This document shows, piece by piece, positions 6,531-9,020 of a stretch of DNA of 39,552 nt (positions are counted from its first letter, which is position 1; every line of letters begins with the position of its first letter). The position numbers and the translations under genes were made by a program. This stretch comes from an uncultured Erysipelotrichaceae bacterium (lineage in GTDB: Bacteria; Bacillota_I; Bacilli_A; Erysipelotrichales; Erysipelotrichaceae). The notes beneath the pieces were generated by a model. It saw only the letters and a list, made by a program, of their open reading frames with translations. It did no database searches and had not been told where the DNA came from. The DNA lies in the NCBI GenBank assembly GCA_946537255.1, contig CAMNFS010000015.1, positions 1 through 39,552 on the forward strand, read 5' to 3'.

Positions 6531-6559
6531 ACCGCGGACTTCCGCGGTTTTCTTTTTTC
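6531..6559 (+). terminator. Terminator of the CHAP gene
   Basis: ACCGCGG and CCGCGGT form a perfect stem with a 4-base loop followed by TTTTCTTTTTT. It abuts the stop codon of the convergent HAD gene. Confidence 0.92.
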
Positions 6560-7382
6560 AGATCAGACCGTACTTCAGAAATGCGTTGCGGATCCCGTCT
6601 TCAAGAATCGGAGTCGTTACCCAGTCCGCAGCTTTCTTGGCCGCTTCCATCGCATTTCCCATGGCGATTCCGACTCCGCAGAAGCGGATCATCGGGATGT
6701 CATTTTCACTGTCACCGATCCCGATGGAATCCTCTATGGATGCGCCATAATAATCAAGCACTCTCTGAATACCGGTTGCTTTGGTTATCGAAGCATTTGT
6801 GATTTCCGCACAGTCATCAAATTCCGGATCACGGACCGTGACCGTGAGAGTAAACCGGTCAGGAATCGACTGTCTCAGTTTCTCAAAACTGGTTCCGTGA
6901 CGGGTATAGGCACAGACCTTATAAATCTTCTCCTCGGGATGTTCATAGTATTCCGGATAGAAACAGTTGTCCCAGAGATTCCGCCGCCGTTCATCCCCGG
7001 TTTCGGCATCGCCGGCAAAGTAACGCATCAGAACGTCATAACCGAACTCATCACAGTATCCGCCGGCCTGTCCTTCCGCAACATATCCCATATCCGCCGC
7101 GTGAATCAGCTGCTTGAGAAGGTCTTCATCTTCTTTTGACAGCGGCTGGTCGTAGATCCGTTTCCGCTCCGCGTAAACCATGGATCCGGCACCGAAGACA
7201 AATCCATCCACATCGGCCCGGAGATATTTATTACAGCCGGCAAGACAGCGGCCCGTGCACAGAAACACCTTTGCCCCGTTTTCTCTTGCCTGACGGACTG
7301 CTTCCTGAGCACTCTCCGGAACCCTTCCAAGTTCCGGGCTGAACAGAGTTCCGTCTATATCCAAAAATACGTATTTTCTCAT
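6558..7382 (-). CDS. HAD-IIB (Cof-type) hydrolase with a structured leader
   Basis: This is a 274-residue cytoplasmic HAD phosphatase. Motif I is DIDGTLF (D8, D10), motif II is FLCTGR, and motif IV is GIGDSENDIPM. A large C2-type cap lies between motifs II and III, as in Cof/YbiV proteins acting on sugar or cofactor phosphates. AGGAG lies 7 bases upstream of the ATG. It is convergent with the CHAP gene. A folded leader that ends in an intrinsic terminator at 7424-7460 precedes the start codon by about 40 bases, suggesting regulation by premature termination; this could point to a small-molecule ligand related to its substrate. Confidence 0.9.
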   Translation of the reverse strand: MRKYVFLDIDGTLFSPELGRVPESAQEAVRQARENGAKVFLCTGRCLAGCNKYLRADVDGFVFGAGSMVYAERKRIYDQPLSKEDEDLLKQLIHAADMGYVAEGQAGGYCDEFGYDVLMRYFAGDAETGDERRRNLWDNCFYPEYYEHPEEKIYKVCAYTRHGTSFEKLRQSIPDRFTLTVTVRDPEFDDCAEITNASITKATGIQRVLDYYGASIEDSIGIGDSENDIPMIRFCGVGIAMGNAMEAAKKAADWVTTPILEDGIRNAFLKYGLI

Positions 7383-7423
7383 TTTGTTTCTCCTGCTTTC
7401 GAATGGATTTTAGCATTGACCAC

Positions 7424-7460
7424 AGAAAGAGAAAAGACCTGCAGTCAGGTCTTCTCTTTC
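7424..7460 (-). terminator. Intrinsic terminator inside the leader of the HAD gene
   Basis: On the minus strand GAAAGAGAAGACCTG pairs with CAGGTCTTTTCTCTTTC around ACTG, with a two-base bulge and a pyrimidine-rich 3' arm. No gene ends here; it precedes a start codon, as attenuator terminators do. Confidence 0.75.
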
Positions 7461-7556
7461 GTATTTGCCTGTTCGGCTGTCTTAGGGGATAGAATCTCTG
7501 AGATACCTGCTAAAGGGGGAGCATGTACTCAGGGCAAGTTTGCTGCTTGCATTCTC
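7424..7556 (-). ncRNA. Candidate riboswitch or attenuator leader, alternatively a small RNA
   Basis: About 130 non-coding bases on the minus strand can form an ordered structure. A hairpin GCAAG/CTTGC comes first. A long interrupted hairpin follows (CTGAG, TAC, TGCT pairing with AGCA, GTA, CTCAG) with a CCCCCTTT loop. Both lie inside a possible closing helix AGAAT/ATTCT. The terminator comes last. The 3' side of the long hairpin (CAGGTATCTC) is also complementary to the 5' arm of the terminator (GAGAAGACCTG) apart from one unpaired base, so the two folds would compete. A -10 TATTAT lies at 7557-7562 with a weak -35. I recognise no known class. The C-rich loop would also suit an anti-Shine-Dalgarno small RNA. 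Confidence 0.45.
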
Positions 7557-7642
7557 ATAATAATCATCCGAATACGCAGAATTATGGTGAAAATATGTGA
7601 GATTGTGTGATTTCTTCTGTTTTTCTCTTCAAAATAACCGGT

Positions 7643-7682
7643 ATGCATGCCTCGTATGCATGTAAAAGAATTCACATGCATG
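7643..7682. repeat. Triple ATGCATG repeat with inverted repeat
   Basis: ATGCATG occurs at 7643, 7656 and 7676. The second and third copies belong to a perfect inverted repeat TGCATGT-N10-ACATGCA (7657-7680). It lies between the HAD leader and the divergent recombinase-like gene promoter, where an operator would be expected. Confidence 0.5.
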
Positions 7683-7720
7683 TTTTGCCTTCCGCGGCCC
7701 GAGATTTGCTTCGATTTTTC

Positions 7721-7749
7721 TTGCAAAACGCCCCTTTACCATCTATTAT
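7721..7749 (+). promoter_or_regulatory. Promoter of the recombinase-like gene
   Basis: The -35 TTGCAA (7721-7726) and -10 TATTAT (7744-7749) have 17-base spacing. Initiation near 7756 means the open frame upstream of that point is not translated. Confidence 0.65.
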
Positions 7750-7880
7750 TTACACATTCTAAGAAGATCTACGGCCTCGGAAAGCGTGTTTATGGTCGCA
7801 TCACTCCTTTGCCAGCGCAAAGGAAGAAAGGAAAAACAGATACAGAAGCTTTCCGCTGTATAATGCAGGACAGATTCACC

Positions 7881-9020
7881 ATGAAAAACAGGACTCCGGA
7901 CGGATTCACTGCCGGACAGTGGGACGCGGTAACGGAGGGGCTTGATCTCAATCCAAACACCGTGAATGACTACCGAAAGGTCCTTAATCGTCTTCACGAC
8001 TACAACAACGGGTCATTGGATATTCAGACAATGACCAAAGAACAGGCGGTTGAATATTTCAACTACCTGGATCAGCTCGGGCAAGACGGAAAGATGTCTC
8101 CGAATACGATTCACCGCTACAAGGCAACCCTCCGTTCCGTCGGCTCCCGGATTGAAAAGCATCCGGAACTCTGGCCGGATTATGTCAACCCTTTTACAAA
8201 ACTCGTAACCAACGAAAGCCGGAAGCGTACCGAATATACTCAGGAGATGTTCGCGGATCCTGAAGACATCCGAAAACTTCTGAACGCGATGCCGCTGTAC
8301 TCCCGCGAAGACAGGCTCATTTTCTCTTTCATGGCCAATATCGGCATGACCTCTGCGCAGATTCAGAATGTGCGGATCAGTCATTTTCGATACGCGTCCA
8401 GGGAAAAAAATGATCTTTATCTTGATATTAATGAAGGAGTCTTTCTGGAGAAGTCGGATCAGCCTTCCAGCCAGAGTATTTATATCAGAGAAAACTATCC
8501 CGTACGGCTCGTACGGGAAGCACCCGGCCATACGATTACCTGGAATTACACCGGAAGCTTCAGTTTTCAGCCCGATTTCCAGGATCAGCTGAAGGAATAC
8601 TATTCCTATATCGGTGTTTCCGATGACAACCGGCCGTTCTTCCTGACCGCAAGGCATCTGATTTTCAATTACCGGGCTATGCACCACATGGTTCTCGTCA
8701 ACTGTGAAAGGGCCGGGGTTGATCACAGCAGAATCACACCGAATCAGATCAGCCGTTTCGGCATTCTCCGTTCTTATTTTCTGACAGAACAGCTTGCAAG
8801 ACATAACAAGTACGTACAGGAACTTCAAAACGCAGATCCCCGGCAGGCGGAAGAGATCCGCAGACTGAATGCCGAATGTGAGGAAATGATTCAGAAACTG
8901 GATCAGGACGGCAGAATCGGCGAATGGAAAGACCGCTTCCCGATCCCCCTGAAAGAACGGGTGGATTCCATGAAACAGTATCTTGGAGAGGAATTTCTGA
9001 AAAAGGCAGCCGGTCTCTGA
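7881..9020 (+). CDS. Tyrosine recombinase-like protein with degenerate active site
   Basis: This is a 379-residue protein. The N-terminal part (to about residue 95) looks like the SAM-like core-binding domain of phage integrases (NPNTVNDYRKVLNRL; SPNTIHRYKATLRSV). The rest resembles the catalytic fold, but key residues are missing. The box I arginine is replaced in ANIGMTSAQIQNV, and the HxxR motif reads NQIS in ITPNQISRFG. A charged helical insert (about residues 300-345) occupies the region before the C-terminus, and no nucleophile tyrosine context is evident. It probably binds DNA without recombining it. The start is taken at 7881 with AGGA 10 bases upstream; ATG 7863 is possible. It is monocistronic. 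Confidence 0.65.
   Translation: MKNRTPDGFTAGQWDAVTEGLDLNPNTVNDYRKVLNRLHDYNNGSLDIQTMTKEQAVEYFNYLDQLGQDGKMSPNTIHRYKATLRSVGSRIEKHPELWPDYVNPFTKLVTNESRKRTEYTQEMFADPEDIRKLLNAMPLYSREDRLIFSFMANIGMTSAQIQNVRISHFRYASREKNDLYLDINEGVFLEKSDQPSSQSIYIRENYPVRLVREAPGHTITWNYTGSFSFQPDFQDQLKEYYSYIGVSDDNRPFFLTARHLIFNYRAMHHMVLVNCERAGVDHSRITPNQISRFGILRSYFLTEQLARHNKYVQELQNADPRQAEEIRRLNAECEEMIQKLDQDGRIGEWKDRFPIPLKERVDSMKQYLGEEFLKKAAGL

Follow-up and report, generated by a model that had tools for sequence, protein, structure and literature searches.

A putative C-rich small RNA family of the Erysipelotrichaceae with a response regulator-type promoter box

The question raised by this locus is what lies in the non-coding stretch in front of a HAD-IIB hydrolase gene. 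The window is the whole stretch of DNA analysed, 39,552 nucleotides of a contig from an uncultured Erysipelotrichaceae bacterium. Erysipelotrichaceae are common gut and rumen bacteria. An earlier note, made from the sequence alone, described the element as an unassigned riboswitch-like leader and offered an anti-Shine-Dalgarno small RNA as an alternative. We think it likely that the element is a stand-alone gene for a trans-acting small RNA (sRNA), activated through a promoter box, whose C-rich sites block ribosome binding on other mRNAs. The sRNA family is previously uncatalogued and absent from Rfam.

The element occupies positions 7610-7426 on the minus strand. A promoter is followed by two hairpins, one of them with a C-rich loop, and then by a CCCC segment left single-stranded and a terminator (Table 1). 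The nested helices and C-rich loop described earlier are present on this strand, and no gene ends inside the element. The intrinsic terminator, which had been placed about 40 bases before a start codon, was also detected independently and ends 43 bases from the HAD ATG (7382). The promoter directly upstream of the RNA had been overlooked. Because close homologues are separated by indels of 1-2 bases, the RNA was read as non-coding. The element had been matched to no known riboswitch class, and the same result was obtained when the window copy and a sister copy were compared with Rfam 15, which includes LhrC. No family matched at gathering score, and none was convincing when permissive E-values (E <=10) were tried.

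Table 1. Positions of the sRNA gene, its parts and the adjacent HAD gene in the window.
Feature	Position	Strand	Remarks
Three-repeat promoter box TCACACAATCTCACATATTTTCACCATAATT	7580..7610	-	Cores 10 and 11 bp apart; aligned in all homologues
-10 element TATTAT	7557..7562	-	17 bp downstream of box in window copy; gap-free column conservation in 58 members
sRNA	7426..7551	-	~126 nt; conserved block in relatives; start (~7551) placed from the -10, end from the terminator T-run
5' hairpin GCAAG...CTTGC	7534..7550	-	Covariation
Second hairpin, bulged, displaying the C-rich loop	7498..7532	-	Two-sided changes at all 8 modelled pairs
C-rich loop CCCCCUUU	7512..7519	-	Candidate Shine-Dalgarno-pairing site 1; looped in individual folds
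Single-stranded UUCUAUCCCCU	7484..7494	-	Near-invariant; candidate pairing site 2 (seed)
Small GCC/GGC hairpin	7467..7477	-	Closest relatives only
Intrinsic terminator of sRNA	~7426..7460	-	Also at the equivalent place in homologues inspected
HAD-IIB family hydrolase (Hydrolase_3)	6558..7382	-	PF08282, E 2.6e-45; adjacent only in some close relatives

Homologues were sought at several depths. By DNA similarity the region was found in 15/39 relatives, all of the same genus as the window. A loop plus seed pattern was run over 84,980 genomes and returned 29 loci, labeled only Solobacterium sp., Lactimicrobium massiliense or Erysipelotrichaceae. Covariance model R1, whose E-values are rough owing to a short calibration, identified the RNA in 60/245 genomes of the order, including 41/50 in the genus, and in 12 genera. 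No match fell outside a single family, the Erysipelotrichaceae, among these 245 genomes. The model found nothing in 9/50 genomes of the genus, so the RNA is not present in every member, and permissive scoring yielded a weak match in one of the nine. When 30 apparent negatives were rescored permissively, five genera were added (g20, g30, g32, g64 and g76), each with a promoter box, which independently confirms the weak matches. Nearly all weak matches inspected had the box, a 5' hairpin, a C-rich middle hairpin, ATTCTATCCCCTTAT and a terminator. Homologues are thus present in at least 17 genera of the Erysipelotrichaceae and were found nowhere else in the order.

The near-invariant ATTCTATCCCCTTAT precedes the terminator across family members. 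The alignment of 16 sequences has TTCTATCCCCT invariant in 16/16, as is the seed UUCUAUCCCCU, which also occurs in nearly all further members, spanning at least 17 genera. Together with the C-rich loop and the -10, upstream repeats of the TCACATAATTT type are among the most conserved parts of the alignment.

These repeats form a family-wide promoter box, TCACATAATTTnACATAATnnTnACATAATT, with three repeats at a constant distance from the -10. The spacing between box and -10 was identical in 58 members; box columns 1-5 and 7 belonged to the search pattern used for this check, and the remaining columns did not. A strict three-repeat scan of 60 relatives, allowing <=3 mismatches, found 16 places, while the reversed pattern found 0. 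All 16 lie directly upstream of a C-rich sRNA, either type A (the window type) or a sister type designated B. Two-repeat matches at C50 and C41 were judged to be chance, the box being only partial there. Because its direct repeats are 10-11 bp apart and stand beside the -35, we infer that a response regulator of the OmpR/PhoB type binds the box. In part of the genus (L023, L033, L036, L041 and others) the space from box to -10 also contains the inverted repeat GACCGAyGGTCGG, possibly a second regulator site.

The structure was examined by energy and by covariation. The 142-nt fold has an energy of -44.3 kcal/mol versus -28.9 +/- 3.2 kcal/mol for shuffled sequences (z = -4.8), and 0/200 shuffles were as stable. 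The terminator accounts for much of this excess stability, and z is -2.1 without it. The earlier note had proposed looking for covariation, and the hairpins do covary across homologues. Among 51 distinct members aligned with the covariance model, 96.7% of the cells were pairing, with two-sided changes at 11/13 pairs, including every modelled pair of the second hairpin. Pairing dropped to 26-48% when partners were slid by 1-3 columns, and 0/500 shuffles matched the real alignment on any of five structure measures. The 5' hairpin GCAAG...CTTGC covaries with GCAGA...TCTGC, CAGAC...GTCTG and others. A covariance-model alignment is biased towards its model, so members were also folded singly and unaligned, over the part running from the predicted start up to the seed. 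The same two hairpins, with the CCCC segment unpaired, came out in nearly all of them. Stem sequences differ between members (CUGA/UCAG, UUGAAUA/UAUUCAA, CUGAUUAUUG/CAAUGAUUAG), and the C-run in the loop of hairpin 2 is retained while its stem sequence varies. Plain MAFFT plus RNAalifold recovered 4 pairs only, because MAFFT misaligned hairpins of unequal length, and was superseded by the covariance model and the individual folds.

The window genome carries three copies, the type A copy of the window and two of type B, which contain CCCCUUUGU. Type B is recognized by the landmarks GACCGG-ACUCCCUUUC-CCGGUC and AAAUCCCCUUUGUAAAUGAUG, and its flank around the CCCC core differs from that of type A. 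The first B copy (L055:2468-2650, G000:C12) has the same promoter box as the window copy and a CCCCUUUGUAAAUGAUG seed. The second (L172:1400-1580, G000:C18) has the same box and seed, and its 5' hairpin adds a third CCCCC stretch. Type B was present in 9/40 genomes tested, with <=2 matches each, and box variants lie upstream of the copies inspected. Tandem copies occur in G129 and G239. L126 has three copies within 500 bases and L122 has two. Where C-rich sRNA genes are arrayed in twos or threes (L126:201-669, L122:201-437, L127), most have a box of their own, and several of the terminators also have CCCC(C)U loops, e.g. GCACAUCCCCUAGCAC.

The mechanism that we propose begins with an activator, most probably a response regulator of the OmpR/PhoB type, which would bind the three direct repeats reaching the -35 and switch on the promoter. 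An RNA of ~110-130 nt, predicted from conserved sequence and structure, would then be transcribed and stop at its own terminator. Its two conserved C-rich sites, the hairpin 2 loop and the unpaired seed, would base-pair with G-rich ribosome-binding sites on several mRNAs and prevent translation from starting. As the sister copies share the promoter box in the same genome and have another C-rich seed (AUCCCCUUUGUAAA), a single signal would release several translational repressors, a small and partly redundant set. Conservation, covariation and architecture all give good support to the anti-Shine-Dalgarno sRNA suggested earlier, its function being putative.

Three OmpR-type regulators are encoded in the window genome. 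For two of them, comparison with NCBIfam and solved structures gave no match at equivalog level, while the third was read by eye; no link between the sRNA and any of the three was found. The promoter box resembles a Pho box. A search with PhoU returned two Na/Pi-cotransporter-like fusions only, with no promoter box near either. These PhoU-domain fusions of ~560-620 aa (G000:C2:40449 and G000:C46:4666) had no pst-type operon beside them. Candidate targets were sought as AGGGGATA before ATG in 8 genomes. Many plausible ribosome-binding sites were found, often of transporters as judged by eye. No orthologous target recurred across the 8 genomes, so no target is claimed. Perhaps a single response regulator acts throughout the family mainly or only via C-rich sRNAs, converting a signal into repression of translation without direct protein-coding targets, and the 15-base seed is near-invariant across at least 17 genera because targets hold it in place; we offer this family-wide regulon tentatively and with some doubt.

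The genes downstream of the RNA were then compared between members; several were named by eye from sequence motifs. They encode HAD, uridine kinase-like P-loop, RapZ-like, phosphatase-like, transketolase-like or transporter-like proteins, or lie on the opposite strand. Because downstream genes vary in identity and strand, the RNA was taken to be a gene of its own. The control over the HAD-IIB gene that had been claimed is not supported, as the RNA is constant from relative to relative and its downstream gene is not; the HAD gene is not a dedicated target and is reached by read-through at most. In the lineage of the window, such read-through might let the sRNA double as the HAD operon's 5' leader. 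HAD lies on the same strand ~100-120 nt past the seed in the close relatives L001, L003, L004 and L035, and no consensus promoter for HAD was seen in the interval. We nevertheless regard this dual use as unlikely, the terminator being strong and the arrangement lineage-specific. The divergent neighbour on the other side of the sRNA (7647-9020, plus strand) has a SAM-like domain of the phage-integrase kind (PF13102). In many genus members a relative of this gene is likewise found upstream of the sRNA, so that synteny of the two is kept in part of the genus. A small secreted CHAP-domain protein (PF05257; 6019-6504, plus strand) adjoins the HAD gene, and a similar one lies beside the sRNA in L040.

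The C-runs could instead sequester an RNA-binding protein or a further RNA, leaving ribosome-binding sites alone. The seed ATTCTATCCCCTTAT is conserved beyond the needs of a Shine-Dalgarno complement, and the search described above gave no recurrent mRNA target, both of which would suit such a sponge. We know of no C-binding regulator of this kind in these bacteria. The flank of type B differs around the common CCCC core, which fits different target sets better than one protein site and makes a sponge quite improbable in our judgement. A protein site has also been discussed as a possibility for the conserved nonamer of the streptococcal csRNAs (PMC3091779).

In the remaining alternative, a ligand bound to hairpin 2 would choose between the terminator and an anti-terminator, making the element a riboswitch or leader that attenuates transcription of the HAD gene. 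The terminator is 43 bases from the start codon, HAD adjacency is retained in some close relatives, and the complementarity claimed between CAGGTATCTC and GAGAAGACCTG is a genuine 9-bp alternative pairing in the window genome (duplex -12.7 kcal/mol, 0/200 shuffles as good). Across 25 homologues, however, the pairing is strong in the window genome only, the median duplex is -3.0 kcal/mol, and the alternative pairing beats the 5% shuffle threshold in 2/25, including the window copy, where chance predicts ~1. The native fold is also the more stable. Forcing the alternative in the full RNA gives -27.5 versus -43.1 kcal/mol, a cost of 15.6; before the 3' arm of the terminator exists the values are -20.5 versus -22.2 kcal/mol, a cost of 1.7. 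Downstream genes in other members are unrelated or on the opposite strand, and conservation is highest in unpaired C-rich sequence rather than in a structured pocket. The competing fold is not conserved, the downstream gene changes, and two sister RNAs elsewhere in the genome have the same box, so the riboswitch or attenuator reading was rejected as highly improbable.

An sRNA gene of this design was compared with three known systems, the csRNAs, LhrC and RoxS/RsaE, for which pairing with ribosome-binding sites has been demonstrated or proposed (PMC3091779, PMC4132741, PMC4409812). The csRNAs of streptococci, controlled by CiaR, have stem-loops around an unpaired anti-ribosome-binding-site sequence and are multicopy and variable in location; in their promoters, direct repeats with an 11-bp separation serve an OmpR-type regulator, and the -10 lies at a fixed distance behind them (PMC3091779). 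The window RNA is likewise short, multicopy and variable in location, with stem-loops flanking an unpaired C-rich seed, a direct-repeat box and fixed -10 spacing. The csRNAs belong to a different bacterial family, and their box, TTTAAG-N5-TTTAAG, stands at 10 bp from the -10, with UCCUAAA in the seed, whereas here there are three ACATAATT-type repeats and UUCUAUCCCCU. The CiaR box NTTAAG-N5-TTTAAG was absent before the -10 in the window and homologous promoters, which carry the ACATAATT-type repeats.

The LhrC family of Listeria depends on LisR, is multicopy, carries UCCC motifs both in loops and in the unpaired stretches that join its stem-loops, and is induced by envelope stress (PMC4132741). 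The window RNA is similar in copy number, in its C-rich motifs in loop and single strand, and in its probable two-component control, but unlike LhrC it has no Rfam match. RoxS/RsaE of Bacillus and Staphylococcus depends on ResD/SrrA and blocks ribosome-binding sites with C-rich regions (PMC4409812). C-rich regions and an upstream site of response-regulator type, to which a regulator is predicted to bind, are features of the window RNA as well. CCCCUUUGU of type B is common to the duplicated CCCCUUUGUU of RoxS and is missing from the window copy; it may represent convergence on the ribosome-binding-site complement. With RF01820 (RsaE/RoxS), 0/13 whole genomes scored above the 79-bit cut-off, and one control genome, presumably Bacillus subtilis, did. 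The best sister-type copy scored 24.5 bits (E 0.09), a level that unrelated terminators also reached in that search. By analogy the RNA would work like the csRNA, LhrC and RoxS/RsaE systems, and by the tests made it is a member of none.

No trans-acting sRNA described for Erysipelotrichaceae was found in the literature searched, subscription papers being outside its scope. The family now has a searchable RNA with a promoter motif, a seed and three candidate regulators in the window genome. The pattern in which a two-component system acts through a C-rich RNA on ribosome-binding sites, as in Streptococcus, Listeria and Bacillus/Staphylococcus, would thereby extend to a distant lineage. Since the same arrangement appears in this distant lineage with unrelated sequences, it suggests that the coupling of two-component systems to C-rich RNAs arose repeatedly.
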